DNA from: an uncultured Bacteroidales bacterium
Lineage (GTDB): Bacteria > Bacteroidota > Bacteroidia > Bacteroidales > Muribaculaceae
NCBI GenBank assembly: GCA_902760865.1
Contig: CACWID010000004.1
Span: forward strand, 1 to 64,000
DNA: 64,000 nt
Reading direction: 5' to 3'
The position numbers and the translations under genes are program-made. A model generated the notes under the pieces. The model had not been told where the DNA came from and did not search any database. It saw only the letters and a program-made list of their open reading frames with translations. Positions within the stretch are counted from its first letter, which is position 1, and the number at the start of each line of letters is the position of its first letter. Below, in pieces: positions 24,240 to 40,544 of the stretch.

Positions 24240-27239
24240 TTATTTCACGAGGACTTTGCGGGCGGTGCCGTCGCTGTAGCGGATGATGTTGACACCGGGC
24301 TGCAGCTGCTGGAGCTGGCGGCCCTGGAGGTCATAGATGCGGGCATCGGCAGGCATGGTGGCCATCACTTCCTCGATGGCGGTAAACTGAACGTTCACCT
24401 CATTGCTGGGCAAGCTCTCGCCCTGCTCGTAAACGGCGGTCACATAGTAGGTGGCATCGTTGCCGGCCTTCTCGCCCGTGTAGGTCGTCTCGGGAGCGGC
24501 GACAAAGGCGATCATCTCGCCGTCGCAATAGACGTTGTAGCCCGTCAGGGTGCGGGGTGCTTCGGCGGTGGCAGCGGGAGCGAAGGTGAAGTCGTCAACC
24601 ATCAGCATCACGCTGCGACGGATGCAACGAACGGCGAAGTAGCTGGTACCCTCGGGCACGTCAAACGAGTATTCGCGCCAACCGTCACCGACGTAGATGC
24701 GCTCCTCGTCGTTCAACTTCACGAAACTGTCGTGGTGGCTGTCGGTCGTCGAGGTATAGACGTTGATCCACTCCGAGTCAAAGGTGGCAGCCTTGGCCCA
24801 GAACTTGATGGTCTGCGCACGGCCGTCGAGGCGCGGCGTGATCAGCCAGTCGTCGTTCTCGTAGGGGTAGTCCACACTGGGAGCAGCCATGTACTGCTCG
24901 CCGCTGCGGGGCATGAACGCATTGTCCATGTTGTCCTCAACCCAGACTTGGGTCTCGGTCGTGTTGAACACTTGGAAGGCCATGGGAGCGCCCTGATTCT
25001 CGTAGGTAACAGGGATGCGCGGTGTCACGAGCGTCGTGGCCTGGTCGCCGTCATAGAGGGTCCAGTCGCCCACGCCGTTGATAGCGAAGGCACGGTAGGA
25101 CTCAAAGTCATCGGTCACATACTCCAGCTCGCCCTGTGCAGGCTCAACCGACTGGCAAGCATCCCACGTCAGCGTGATATTGTTGCCGCTGGTAGTAGCC
25201 GAGAGGTACTCGGGTGCGGGCAGTTCATTGGGACGAACCGAGGTGGCGATGACAGCGCTCTTGTTGTTCTCGGGCATCATGTCGTTGGCCCAAACCACCT
25301 CGACCTGCCAGTTGATGGACTCCATCTCGGCATCGGCTGCAGTAGCGGTATAGGTGGCGATACCGGTCGTTGTGAAACCGGCAGCAAGCGATTGCTCGGT
25401 GACACTCTGATAGAGTTCGCCGTCCTTGTAGATATTCACGGTGTAGTTCTGGGCCTCCTGTGAACCGCGGTTCACGATGTCGTACTTCATCTCGAAGTCC
25501 TCGCCCACGTTGACACGCTTCGGGTCGATGGTGAAGGCGCTGACGGCAAGATCATTCTCGACACTAGCCTCACCGATGCGGATGTTGTCCACATACAGGT
25601 CACGGCGGGCACCCATCTGGTCGCTCAGGGCCGAGGCCAGCAGACCGATGTTGGCAAAGTTGGCGTCAGCATTCTTGGGCAGAATCACTTCACACTCTAC
25701 CCACTGGTCGGTCATCTCGTTGAGGAAGAACTGGGCGTTCTCGACATCCTGCCACTCGCCGCCGTCATAGGAGACTTGCACCTGGATGTTGTCGTCGATT
25801 TCGCCGTCCCACTCGGGGTCGTACCACGCGCTACGGCCATAGTGGAACATGAACTTCATCGTGGGCACGGCCACGCTGTTGAGGTTCAGCATGGGCGAAA
25901 CGATACGGCTGTGGGTGTCATAGTCGGCATACTGGCTCTCAGCAACGAGGAAGCCGCCGTCATAGTCGGGAGCCTCGATGAGCGGCTCGCCCGTCCAGTC
26001 GTCATAGATGTCGCCCGTGGCATAGAAGTCAAAGTCGTGCACCTCGCCGTCCTGGGTCCAGTTCTCTTGCTCGCCCCATGCGAACGATGCCTGGTAAGGC
26101 AGGTCAAGAGGCTTGCCGGTCACCACGCTGTTGCTCTGCACGGCCTCACCCTCATTGCCGTTATAGAGCGGCGTGATGGTGTAGCTGGCGTTGACTTGGC
26201 CCTCAGTGACGGGGATGTTGTCGGTATAGGAGGTCTCGCTGGTGCCCTCGGCAACCACGCCGCTCGACTCGCTGTTGCGCTCCACGCGATAAGTGATCGC
26301 GCTGTAGTCAACATAGCCGCCGTTGACCGACTGCGTCGGGGCGTCCCAGGTCACGGTGATGCTCATGTCGTTGTTCAGCTTGGCCACAGCATTGGCGGGA
26401 GCCACGGGCATATCCATGCCGACAAAGGCGGTCACCTCGACTGCACTACCCTCGCCCTCGCCATTGCGGGCAACGACACGGTAGGTGTTGAAGCCGTTCA
26501 CGACCTCGGCATCGAGATAGGTCAAGGCCTCACCCGGGGCTGGATTCTCGAAGGTCTTCTCGAGCACACCGTTGACATAGACATCGATGGCGGTGATTTC
26601 GCTCAAGGCCTCACCGGCGGCAGTTACCGCGGGAGCCGTGAAGGTCAGCGTAGCCTCGTTGGCGCCGAGGTCGGCAGGCGTCAGCACGAGGTCGGTCACC
26701 TCGCCGGGAACGCCCTTGGACGATTTCTCGACGAGCTTCACGTTGTCGATTTCGACGCGGTGTTGCTCAGGGTCACTGTAGGCATAGAACGCAATGCGAT
26801 ACGTGCCGCTGGTGGCAGCATACACCTTGACCGTCTTGTCGCCCGAGTCGCTCTTGACAACGCCGGGATAGTCGGCGAGCACCTGGGTGAACGAGGCGGG
26901 ATCGGTGCTGGTGCCGAGCAACACGCGCAGGTTCTCGGTCTTGGACAGCACGCCCATGTAGAACGTCAGCTCATACACGTTGTCGGCATCCAGCTCAAAC
27001 TCCGGCGAGATGTAGTAATCATCGCCGGGAAGGCCGGTCTGGTAGTCGAGCATGTAAGCAGCCATGCCGTTGAGGAACTCCCACGTGCGGCCACCGTTCT
27101 GGTCAACGATGGTCCAGGAGTCAAAGGCTTCCTGCGTGTCGAAGGTCTCTTCGAGCAGGATATCGCCAGGGTTTGCCCACATTGCTGTTGCGGCAAACGC
27201 CATCAGCCCCAAGAATAGGGTCCGTAAAGATTTTTCCAT
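24240..27239 (-). CDS. Large secreted choice-of-anchor-J protein with a T9SS-type tail
   Basis: A 999-aa exported protein. The start MEKSLRTLF at 27239 gives a signal peptide cleaved near MWA-NPG (about residue 22). The first jelly roll (about 25-170) has ETFDTQEAFDSW, GDDYYISPEF and RVEIDNVKLVEKS; a middle one (about 385-560) has SRIVSPMLNLNSV and LYVDNIRIG; the last (about 700-885) has NDDWLITPRLDG and VMLMVDDFTF. Fn3-like linkers and a CARDB-like segment lie between. The C-terminus ARIYDLQGRQLQQLQPGVNI...TARKVLVK is a typical sorting tail. It has the same overall order as the proteins at 9102 and 16134, so the three are paralogues. Promoter TAAATTTG at 27296-27289. Ligand unknown. Confidence 0.87.
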   Translation of the reverse strand: MEKSLRTLFLGLMAFAATAMWANPGDILLEETFDTQEAFDSWTIVDQNGGRTWEFLNGMAAYMLDYQTGLPGDDYYISPEFELDADNVYELTFYMGVLSKTENLRVLLGTSTDPASFTQVLADYPGVVKSDSGDKTVKVYAATSGTYRIAFYAYSDPEQHRVEIDNVKLVEKSSKGVPGEVTDLVLTPADLGANEATLTFTAPAVTAAGEALSEITAIDVYVNGVLEKTFENPAPGEALTYLDAEVVNGFNTYRVVARNGEGEGSAVEVTAFVGMDMPVAPANAVAKLNNDMSITVTWDAPTQSVNGGYVDYSAITYRVERNSESSGVVAEGTSETSYTDNIPVTEGQVNASYTITPLYNGNEGEAVQSNSVVTGKPLDLPYQASFAWGEQENWTQDGEVHDFDFYATGDIYDDWTGEPLIEAPDYDGGFLVAESQYADYDTHSRIVSPMLNLNSVAVPTMKFMFHYGRSAWYDPEWDGEIDDNIQVQVSYDGGEWQDVENAQFFLNEMTDQWVECEVILPKNADANFANIGLLASALSDQMGARRDLYVDNIRIGEASVENDLAVSAFTIDPKRVNVGEDFEMKYDIVNRGSQEAQNYTVNIYKDGELYQSVTEQSLAAGFTTTGIATYTATAADAEMESINWQVEVVWANDMMPENNKSAVIATSVRPNELPAPEYLSATTSGNNITLTWDACQSVEPAQGELEYVTDDFESYRAFAINGVGDWTLYDGDQATTLVTPRIPVTYENQGAPMAFQVFNTTETQVWVEDNMDNAFMPRSGEQYMAAPSVDYPYENDDWLITPRLDGRAQTIKFWAKAATFDSEWINVYTSTTDSHHDSFVKLNDEERIYVGDGWREYSFDVPEGTSYFAVRCIRRSVMLMVDDFTFAPAATAEAPRTLTGYNVYCDGEMIAFVAAPETTYTGEKAGNDATYYVTAVYEQGESLPSNEVNVQFTAIEEVMATMPADARIYDLQGRQLQQLQPGVNIIRYSDGTARKVLVK

Positions 27240-27288
27240 AAAAAAACGCATTAATGTTGATTAAACGATACAATAATATAAAGCACCG

Positions 27289-27296: not shown

Positions 27297-27512
27297 CTGA
27301 TACTTGCTGAGTTAGGCAACACAACCATCAATAAAAAAATGTAACAAAGATCATTTCCCCACAATAAAGTGAATATTAATAACGAACTGCAAAGCGGTCG
27401 CAAACTAGTCCCCCACCCTGCACCTCGCACCATGCCACACAGACAAAAGCGAGGAGGGATTGCCACAGGCATTTTCCTCCCCACACTATCATGTATTATT
27501 TAGGATTTTGCG

Positions 27513-28943
27513 TCATTCATCGCCAGCGAGCTCGAGCGTTGCGAATCGCAGATGAGTTATACCCTTGAATCCCGTCATGAACATGCGTACATAGCGGATG
27601 TTGGAGAAGTCCTGAATAGAACCAACCTTCTTCTGATACTGATTCAGGGGGATGGTGAACTGGTACCACGTTGCCTCCTGAGTCTGGCCATTGCGCACAT
27701 GGACTTTTGCCACCAGCTTGTCGGTGATAAAGTTCTTACCCACCTCCATAAAGTCGGGACGAATCGCGATGCGATACTGGAAGAAACGTTCATCCTCGTT
27801 AAGCGTGAGGTCCAGATTGATGTCCTCGGCATTGGGAGTGGAGCGTGAAGTCTGATACTGACTGTCGCCGGCATCACTCTGAGAGAGCGAGTTGCCCTCA
27901 GTGCCGTTATAGTGCTTGTAACGGCCGTTTATCGCGAAGCGCTGATAATCGTAGTAGTTATTGAGATAGTAGGCGTAATTATCGCCTGCCGGGTCATTGA
28001 ATGGGGAGAACGGATCATCCAGCATGGCAATGATCTTGGACTCCGGCAAAACTGCACGCAACTCATTCAAGAATTTGGCATAGGTGGGATGTTCAAACTC
28101 CGCCTGGTCGGTAAGTCCGTCAAGGCCGACATCCTGAAGAATCCGCGAACCATTACTGTTATCGAAGGCATACATCAGTGGAGCCTGAGAGGGGACTTTT
28201 CCCCAAACTGTATGGGTGACATACGTGTTATCACCATTGTAGGTCAACCCGTTCTCATAGCTCAAGAGACCATCCTTGAGGACATCCTCGCTTACCTCAC
28301 CCAGGTTGAAGTACAGGTAGCCGCCCGTCTGGTTGTCAAGTTCGGGATCCATGAACGGGTCCAGCAGCCAGAACTGGATATACTTGATGCCGGCCTGCTC
28401 CAGGTCGGTATTGAGCATCTTGCGCATGATACCGCCCCATCGGCGCTCAGGATTAAGCAGGTATCCGTCCTGATCAACGTTGCTGCCGTCGAGGTTGTAC
28501 GGGCCGCGCTCACGCGGGTAGAACGACAAATTGAGCGTCTCGATCACCGACGACTCGCCATTCTCCAGCTCGCGGTCAGGGAAGACCTCAGAAAATGCCA
28601 CTTCGCGGGCATAAGGATAGGACAAGGCGTCCATGTCATTGTTGATGTAGCCGGGGGCACCGGGTGAGTTGCGTTGCGTGAACAGCCGGTCGATGGTGTA
28701 CCACGCCAACAACGCACGGTTCTTGCCATAGGTCACGTCGTTCGTCAAAGAAGCTTCGGGGAACAGCTCCGGATCTGCCGGAACCGAAGCCAACGACCAA
28801 GCGAACGGAAAGCTGATATCGATAGCAGTACGGCTGTTCTCGGGCTCGTCAATAACGGTGTTTCCCGATTTTGAATCATTACAGCTCGTTGACACCACAA
28901 ATAATGACAAGGCCAAAAGGCTGTTTATTATTATCCTTTTCAT
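27513..28943 (-). CDS. Lipoprotein homologous to an internal segment of T9SS translocon SprA (Sov)
   Basis: A 476-aa protein with a lipoprotein signal (lipobox STSC, Cys21). From about residue 38 to the end it reads like the middle of SprA, the ~2400-aa T9SS outer-membrane translocon: FPFAWSLASVP, ALLAWYTIDRLF, ERGPYNLDG, NPERRWGGIMRK, QFWLLDPFMDPE, LYFNLGEVSEDVLKDG, TVWGKVPSQ, FSPFNDPAGDNYAYY, TPNAEDINLDLTLNEDE, RYVRMFMTGFKG and LRFATLEL. The frame ends at TGA just where, as I recall it, SprA continues EWR; the codons after TGA read Arg-Lys. No barrel region follows. It is either a free-standing domain that works with T9SS or the remnant of a duplicated SprA gene; the ~430 intact residues argue for function. 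Homology is from memory. Confidence 0.8.
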   Translation of the reverse strand: MKRIIINSLLALSLFVVSTSCNDSKSGNTVIDEPENSRTAIDISFPFAWSLASVPADPELFPEASLTNDVTYGKNRALLAWYTIDRLFTQRNSPGAPGYINNDMDALSYPYAREVAFSEVFPDRELENGESSVIETLNLSFYPRERGPYNLDGSNVDQDGYLLNPERRWGGIMRKMLNTDLEQAGIKYIQFWLLDPFMDPELDNQTGGYLYFNLGEVSEDVLKDGLLSYENGLTYNGDNTYVTHTVWGKVPSQAPLMYAFDNSNGSRILQDVGLDGLTDQAEFEHPTYAKFLNELRAVLPESKIIAMLDDPFSPFNDPAGDNYAYYLNNYYDYQRFAINGRYKHYNGTEGNSLSQSDAGDSQYQTSRSTPNAEDINLDLTLNEDERFFQYRIAIRPDFMEVGKNFITDKLVAKVHVRNGQTQEATWYQFTIPLNQYQKKVGSIQDFSNIRYVRMFMTGFKGITHLRFATLELAGDE

Positions 28944-29171
28944 AACTCTAAACTTTTAATTAACATGGGTTTATAATAAATAATTAGGTAATGATGTACT
29001 TTTGTTCCTAACATAAATAACATTAATTCTCATTGGTTCCCATTAAGGCTGGCCATAAGATATAGCCCCCTTTACCATAAAAACGGAATAAAATGAGAAA
29101 TATTATATATCCTTTCGGGACACTTCAAGCAATTTCAATGTTCTTGAACCGCACCCGAGCAAGCTTATGAT

Positions 29172-29372
29172 AACGAGAGTTCGACGAAAATAAGTTACTG
29201 ATACTCAATTCCTCCCCTAAGATAGGGGAGGTGGCGCGTAGCGCCGAAGGAGTATGATTCACCCTCAAAGCACTTACTCTTGGTGCATCAACGCCCCCCG
29301 GCCCCCTCTTATCTAAGAGGGGGAGTTGCTAACGCACTGATTGACAATTAATAATTTCGTCGAACTCACGTT
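29172..29372 (+). mobile_element. 201-bp MITE-like element, copy A
   Basis: Ends AACGAGAGTTCGACGAAA and TTTCGTCGAACTCACGTT are inverted repeats with one mismatch over 18 bp. Inside are three GC hairpins (CCTCCCCT/AGGGGAGG, GGCGC/GCGCC, CCCCCTC/GAGGGGG). No ORF. An inverted copy of the same length is at 40344-40544, and a fragment at about 57582-57643. It lies in the 550-bp gap 28944-29494, which otherwise shows only AT-rich sequence and a plus-strand TACTTTTG with no gene after it. Confidence 0.8.
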
Positions 29373-40344: not shown

Positions 40345-40544
40345 ACGCGAATTCGACGAAATTATTAATTGTCAATCAGTGCGTTAGCAACTCCCCCTCT
40401 AAGATTAGAGGGGGCCGGGGGGCGTTGACGCCCCAAGAGAAAGTGCTTTGAGGGTGAATCATACTCCTCCGGCGCTTCGCGCCACCTCCCCTACCTTAGG
40501 GGAGGAATTGAGCATCAGCAACTTATTTTCGTCGAACTCACGTT
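40344..40544 (-). mobile_element. 201-bp MITE-like element, copy B (inverted relative to copy A)
   Basis: The reverse complement of the element at 29172-29372, with the same length and internal hairpins. The right end is TTTCGTCGAACTCACGTT; the left end has diverged to GACGCGAATTCGACGAAA. ATAGACGC occurs at both edges (40341-40348 and 40547-40554) and might be a target duplication. The element starts on the last base of the GNAT stop codon. Confidence 0.8.

Follow-up and report, generated by a model that had tools for sequence, protein, structure and literature searches.

A small predicted lipoprotein derived from one domain of the type 9 secretion pore SprA in an uncultured Bacteroidales bacterium and some of its relatives

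A stand-alone SprA-domain gene and its surroundings

The window, i.e. the whole stretch of 64,000 nucleotides analysed here, comes from an uncultured Bacteroidales bacterium (genome G000). As summarized in Table 1, it carries a gene whose product combines a lipoprotein signal with a single SprA domain. The first-pass annotation of this DNA had recognized about 430 residues from the middle of SprA, the translocon of the type 9 secretion system (T9SS), behind a lipoprotein signal and without the barrel, and this description holds. The NCBIfam profile TIGR04189 (SprA/Sov) matches the 476-residue protein with an E-value of 4.2e-159 and 531.7 bits (cut-off 200), residues 25-474 being aligned with positions 758-1191 of the 2319 model positions. 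The Pfam profile SprA_N, which had been suggested as a check, matches residues 315-473 (E 1.7e-51), and residues 856-1260 of Flavobacterium johnsoniae SprA (PDB 6h3i) align with residues 29-473 (E 4e-82). The PDB matches up to an E-value of 0.1 comprise two distinct sequences, both of them F. johnsoniae SprA. Given the length of the protein and the part of SprA that is matched, the full-length 36-strand SprA barrel is absent from this one-domain protein, whose AF2 model is self-contained. The T9SS sorting domain TIGR04183 is also absent; TIGR04189 alone matches up to an E-value of 1. Thus, a small predicted lipoprotein made from one secretion-pore domain is encoded in this bacterium and in some of its relatives, as the comparisons below confirm.

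Table 1. Features of the stand-alone gene and its flanks in the window
Feature	Position	Strand	Basis and remarks
Stand-alone SprA-domain lipoprotein gene	27513..28943	-	476 aa, stop TGA; open reading frame and profile matches; nine more complete copies in the genus
Putative signal peptide with lipobox (residues 1-20), followed by Cys21	28884..28943	-	By eye; lipobox in 10 of 10 complete copies
SprA domain (residues 25-474 = TIGR04189 758-1191; 6h3i 856-1260)	27522..28871	-	Profile, PDB and AF2/Foldseek matches
TGA stop at the SprA Trp codon (GEWRN)	27513..27515	-	Comparison with 19 SprA genes and the stand-alone genes of G053, G054 and G063
CGC AAA after the stop, probable remnant of the SprA Arg-Asn codons (CGC AAC in G054, G063)	27507..27512	-	Gene comparison
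Downstream neighbour, 1003 aa, choice_anch_J / Cleaved_Adhesin, probable secreted protein; outside the unit	24240..27251	-	Open reading frame and profiles
CATTACCTAATTATT, possible control element about 35-50 bases upstream of the gene	28979..28993	-	Alignment of 10 copies, by eye

The neighbouring genes gave few clues. An adjoining gene for a T9SS-type secreted protein had been noted by eye, and a probable secreted protein is indeed encoded there; it matches choice_anch_J and not TIGR04183 at an E-value of 0.001, so that its assignment to T9SS rests on inspection. Homologues of the two choice_anch_J proteins of the window were found in four of 12 other loci of the genus that were compared. 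No constant partner gene and no constant T9SS neighbour were noticed in the loci read, where the neighbours shift between genomes and most are unannotated, and PADLOC-DB models returned no family at an E-value of 0.001 for the stand-alone protein and nine neighbours. Upstream of the gene, a stretch like CATTACCTAATTATT was seen by eye in nine of the ten aligned copies (L134-L142 and the window) despite the divergence of the alleles. A separate repeat, GGTGGCGCGTAGCGCCGAAGGAG, occurs twice in the window in opposite orientations (29230-29252 and 40464-40486, the latter with two mismatches). No match was obtained for it in 100 shuffles, and among 185 loci the exact sequence was found only in the window's own copy, L001.

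Predicted fold and export signal

The AF2 model made from a 63-row alignment has a pLDDT of 82.6 and a pTM of 0.84, and thus the modelled domain forms a self-contained fold. When Foldseek was run with this model, SprA was the best match (E 3e-39, TM 0.74), followed weakly by family-11 carbohydrate-binding modules (E 0.11 and 0.14; probability 0.75 and 0.80). A model of 1185 residues of the SprA encoded in the same genome reached a pLDDT of 50.2 and a pTM of 0.38 and was not used for the domain topology.

Glycan binding is common among surface lipoproteins of gut Bacteroidota. Is the protein a new adhesin or glycan-binding surface protein, whose beta-sandwich core binds a sugar or a host ligand unrelated to secretion? 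The carbohydrate-binding modules as the nearest non-SprA folds and the habits of gut surface lipoproteins point that way. However, the fold match is weak and would equally apply to the same domain within SprA, and no constant glycan-use gene was noticed around the stand-alone gene in the genus loci. I regard this explanation as quite unlikely.

The lipobox of the window protein reads ...LFVVSTS-C (by eye). With a lipoprotein signal ahead of the domain, the protein would most likely sit in the outer membrane and face outward. It resembles surface lipoproteins bearing an export signal in having a lipobox and a polar and then an acidic residue after the cysteine; it differs in being derived from SprA and in having a weaker signal, the genus copies reading NDS, SDS or TDS (SDN in G054) as compared with the B. 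fragilis consensus SDDDD reported in PMC5080379.

The stop codon replaces a tryptophan codon of SprA

The first-pass annotation had proposed that the frame ends where TGG of the SprA EWR motif had changed to TGA, and relatives bear this out. Twenty SprA genes were extracted for the comparison, one of which escaped the search pattern. All of the 19 read have GEWRN at this place, with the codons GAG/GAA TGG CGN AAC/AAT. The stand-alone genes read GGC GAG TGA CGC AAC in G054, GGA GAA TGA CGC AAC in G063, GGT GAC TGA CGC AAT in G053, and GAT GAA TGA CGC AAA in the window. Since SprA has GAG TGG CGC AAC where stand-alone genes have GAG/GAA TGA CGC AAC, a change from TGG to TGA is well supported, and it is probably older than the split of these alleles. 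The bases past TGA differ in G103, G096, G080, G085, G078, and G094, and TAA takes the place of TGA in G021 and in a remnant in G006; either the stop or the sequence beyond it has thus drifted in these copies. Translational read-through past the TGA was also considered and set aside: in the 60 bases after the stop, the SprA-like frame ends within about two codons.

The intact SprA of the same genome

The genome has its own SprA on another contig (G000:C3:76099-77478 for the corresponding part, 70% identical to the stand-alone protein), in an open frame of 2503 residues, or 2499 counted from the first methionine. The comparison with a full sprA of the same genome, which had been called for, therefore makes the window gene an extra, partial copy; the stand-alone protein does not serve as the SprA of its genome. 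Compared with SprA (PDB 6h3i and 8gl8), it retains the sequence and the predicted fold of one domain of about 450 residues. Unlike SprA, it amounts to about a fifth of the length, has neither the barrel nor the N-terminal part, and has its own lipoprotein signal and a separate locus. Another genome of the genus, G017, shows two different sprA genes (L147 on G017:C104 and L006 on G017:C39), one of them cut by the contig start, which reflects either mixed strains or a real second sprA.

Two PorV-family proteins above the cut-off were found in the window's genome and none in 14 control genomes, and six of its seven TIGR04183 matches lie above the cut-off, as opposed to one of the 14 controls with a match above it. 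These observations suit the main rival of the interpretation favoured below, in which the lipoprotein is a T9SS accessory that offers the surface of the SprA cap in trans to sorting domains or to a PorV-cargo complex, as a holding, anchoring, or release site after the cargo leaves the pore. According to PMC10994853, the SprA cap contributes to binding of the cargo sorting domain, and the choice_anch_J homologues in four of 12 other loci may be counted on the same side. On the other hand, the loci read showed no T9SS gene as a regular neighbour, with most neighbours unannotated, and the SprA of the same genome is not the closest one. When 35 SprA sequences were ranked by similarity to the stand-alone protein of each of ten genomes, the SprA of the same genome took ranks 25, 29, 4, 33, 18, 5, 23, 5, 32, and 30, i.e. 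it was among the five closest in three genomes (ranks 4-5) and at 18-33 in seven. There is thus no general tracking of the own SprA, and a tight partner of the own SprA is not favoured by these ranks of 4-33. An accessory role is, on balance, unlikely.

The same ranks bear on a regulator that docks on SprA, either plug-like or as a cap replacement tuning the pore. Since the protein is derived from SprA, it could bind where the parent domain sits or take its place, and the three genomes with high ranks would suit this. Against it stand the seven genomes with ranks of 18-33, the loss of connecting segments between the domain and the remainder of SprA (see below), and the fact that the Plug of known systems is another protein, one that seals the pore of the SprA translocon (PMC10994853, PMC7463736). 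The plug role raised in the first-pass annotation is also hard to reconcile with the export signals of independent forms, which lead to the outer membrane or beyond. A regulator of either kind seems very unlikely.

Distribution in the genus

A search of 101 genomes of the genus gave a match in 92. Complete stand-alone frames of 473-484 residues (open frame) are present in ten of the 101 (G000, G103, G096, G021, G054, G080, G053, G085, G094, and G078), and all ten end at the same place in the domain, within a few residues. The copy of G063 is cut by a contig end, and remnants were found in G006 and G116. In the latter (L145:8463-8724), roughly 32 C-terminal residues of the stand-alone protein are encoded directly before a stretch like the C-terminus of the window's 1003-residue neighbour, as after a deletion. 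Two observations had been named beforehand as fatal to a retained gene. The first, a full-length sprA at this exact locus in relatives, was not seen in the loci read. The second, decay among relatives, is real in G006 and G116; the ten other copies are complete and under purifying selection, and with a complete copy in ten of 101 genomes, simple decay does not describe the gene.

Other origins of the window copy were considered. An assembly artefact or contamination is disfavoured by the complete copies in ten genomes of the genus and by the position of the window copy inside a 167-kb contig. No phage match was obtained, and among 20 viral-contig stretches that fitted a search pattern none encodes a relative. 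The sole plasmid match is an annotated sprA of Parabacteroides; the replicon concerned (P. distasonis NZ_OY725768.1) is 388 kb in length and listed as a plasmid.

Phylogeny and selection

A tree of the domain was built from 65 rows (10 stand-alone sequences, 47 SprAs of the genus, and 8 outgroup SprAs). The stand-alone sequences form one clade with a support of 100/99, nested inside the SprAs of the genus, although the bootstrap was not fully settled. In a codon model, omega is 0.157 for the stand-alone genes, about 2.5 times the value of 0.062 obtained for the SprA domain in these ten genomes (final values of the fits; earlier ones were 0.188 and 0.086). Pairwise NG86 values for the stand-alone genes range from 0.115 to 0.254, and many SprA pairs are saturated at silent sites by this method. 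These values, which answer the call for a dN/dS analysis, clearly indicate purifying selection on the stand-alone gene; the codon-model omega gives no sign of positive selection on average.

Which parts of the domain have been released from constraint? Among the 244 columns that hold the same residue in 95% or more of the 47 SprA rows, 16 are changed in at least eight of the ten stand-alone sequences, which gives little sign of a new site and counts against an adhesin. Eight of these 16 columns lie at the two junctions with the remainder of SprA, namely the N-terminal linker (YIDDFESTQSG) and the C-terminal end (VRG) of the domain. Comparison of the sequences thus supports the view that the ends have been uncoupled from SprA with most of the core kept. 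Residues 251-275 and 351-375 are more variable in stand-alone proteins than in SprA (mean identity 0.54 versus 0.85 and 0.65 versus 0.90), which argues against an accessory offering the SprA surface, but the reverse holds for residues 151-175 (0.77 versus 0.69) and 276-300 (0.64 versus 0.52). The absence of the gene from most genomes of the genus is a further point against such an accessory.

The first-pass annotation had also considered a truncated duplicate under new use. Duplication and retention agree with the single clade, the selection, and the uncoupled ends; the new use is something I infer. Could the gene be a chance survivor, a functionless sprA fragment kept through the horizontal spread of a gene island? 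The two remnants, the patchy presence, and the raised omega would be expected of such a fragment. But ten frames have stayed open, without stops, at pairwise dS values of up to about 1.57-1.58, with an omega of 0.157 and with a lipobox in every one, and further forms with export signals of their own exist elsewhere. A mere survivor is therefore highly improbable.

Exchange between species and old alleles

The stand-alone genes of G103 and G096 encode proteins 97% identical (dS 0.06), whereas the SprA domains of the two are 81% identical (dS 0.89). Conversely, G053 and G078 have SprA domains 97% identical (dS 0.21) and stand-alone proteins of about 66-67% amino acid identity. The latter pair shares the same locus, where the stand-alone genes have a dS of 1.06, as compared with 0.41 for the upstream gene, which I take to be an acetyltransferase gene, 0.08 for the downstream gene, presumably of HxlR type, 0.45 for a presumed aldo-keto reductase gene, and 0.43 for a presumed TonB receptor gene; these names were given by likeness. 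The dS of the stand-alone genes is 0.74 for G000/G094, 1.17 for G000/G078, and 1.58 for G000/G103, versus 0.33-0.48 for the neighbours compared, and 1.12 for G021/G053 versus 0.84 and 0.40. Thus, five genome pairs show greater divergence in the stand-alone alleles than in the neighbours examined. Two further pairs, in which exchange is recent, have stand-alone genes about as similar as their flanks (97.5% DNA identity against 92-94% for G103/G096; 91.6% against 94-98% for G080/G085). The genes of the island are mostly 80-95% identical in DNA, as against the sprA regions of five pairs, four of which show 72-83% identity and one 92.7%. These contrasts clearly indicate that the region moves between species by horizontal exchange, and that the stand-alone alleles look older than their surroundings in several pairs. 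Drift combined with exchange could account for the old alleles.

Stand-alone forms in other families of Bacteroidales

Short lipoprotein forms in other Bacteroidales, the search for which had been suggested, do exist. An order search of 393 genomes, with at most four candidates scored per genome, was supplemented by a re-run of 20 genomes (15 with multiple matches, besides the window's own, and five with low scores). Stand-alone forms were found in at least four genomes of other families, G165, G270, G491, and G317. G270 has two, one of them cut by a contig end, and a family search added a form in G499. By family, the trait is present in two of three genomes of f65, one of ten of f63, and two of 16 of f119. 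A type A sorting domain closes the complete proteins of three genomes, G165 (24.3 bits, barely above the cut-off of 23), G270 (41.4 bits), and G491 (34.7 bits), and TIGR04183 is accordingly found at L168, L169, and L171. These proteins resemble T9SS cargo in carrying this domain behind the SprA domain; the window form has a lipobox instead. The forms of G317 and G499 start with a lipobox (by eye). The G317 gene (L172:9045-10400) is frame-broken, and its relative in G499 has an open frame. All complete forms share the domain together with a signal that would direct it toward the outer membrane or the outside. Some 1.4 kb upstream of the G270 form cut by the contig end (L170) is a gene of the PorP/SprF family (L170:2313-2744; PF11751, E 8e-17).

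A tree of 39 rows places the f65 forms within the SprAs of f65 (97/94) and the genus forms within those of the genus. A single origin was ruled out: a topology uniting all 13 stand-alone sequences in one clade is rejected with a p-AU of 1.6e-129. Long branches connect the remaining three rows, including the grouping of the G491 form with the f119 lipoproteins, which calls for caution, and thus the count of origins outside the genus is not exact. Three changes are counted on the tree, a number that by itself does not tell gain from loss; the tree suggests at least two further events giving stand-alone forms outside the genus. Among the matches listed for two overlapping class samples (149 genomes, and 396 genomes with at most four candidates scored in each), no further stand-alone form appeared. 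Eight genomes of the larger sample had two or more matches (the window's own, G549, G562, G625, G736, G796, G843, and G849). The second matches of G549, G562, and G625, seen in the 149-genome sample, are split or frame-broken SprAs, and those of G736, G796, G843, and G849 fall outside the matches listed.

Possible function and meaning

The comparisons above show the anatomy and history of the gene; from them I infer a function. SprA is capped on the outside, according to PMC10994853, and the cap, the lateral opening, and the Plug are described in PMC7463736. With such a cap, and with the convergence of independent forms on export, the domain is probably extracellular in SprA and would belong to the cap. 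In the favoured explanation, an ancestor shared by some members of the genus acquired an extra copy of a self-folding SprA domain, which was cut where the Trp codon became TGA and came to stand behind a lipoprotein signal. The copy is retained by selection and passes between species, existing as old, divergent alleles. According to the tree, the same domain was released separately outside the genus, where a T9SS sorting domain or a lipoprotein signal would provide for its export. Displayed away from the pore, the domain would bind whatever binds it in SprA, such as a phage, an antibacterial toxin, or an antibody, and binding there would make it a decoy or competitor that spares the pore.

My leading, though tentative, interpretation is thus that the SprA domain is displayed at the surface as a decoy for an outside binder of SprA. 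Since the domain comes from a surface pore needed for secretion, this is the most economical reading, and a surface protein involved in a conflict could well show the repeated origins, scattered distribution, exchange, and old alleles seen here. It is doubtful, but conceivable, that Bacteroidales have repeatedly excised this domain and displayed it as exchangeable, allele-rich decoys in a conflict that targets the type 9 pore. Several observations speak against a decoy. There is no PADLOC hit in the protein or the nine neighbours tested, and the gene is rare (ten of 101 genomes of the genus, at least four genomes of the order sample, and one from the family search). The divergence of alleles does not exceed that of the neighbours in every pair (G103/G096 and G080/G085), the signal after the cysteine is weak relative to SDDDD, and the PorP/SprF-family gene near the L170 form favours a T9SS accessory instead. 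To my knowledge, nothing directed at SprA, be it a ligand, a phage, a toxin, or an antibody, is known for these bacteria, and no description of a stand-alone SprA-domain form turned up among the papers listed in the literature searches.

SprA is usually regarded as a single giant pore. A SprA domain that is separately exported, kept by selection, and born more than once would mean that the domain has an activity of its own or a role as a target. That other families made similar cut-outs independently suggests that displaying the domain outside the pore is useful in itself. The finding may reflect a so far unrecognized pressure acting on the secretion machinery of a large bacterial group, and it makes a direct experiment possible: the domain can be expressed and its binders looked for.
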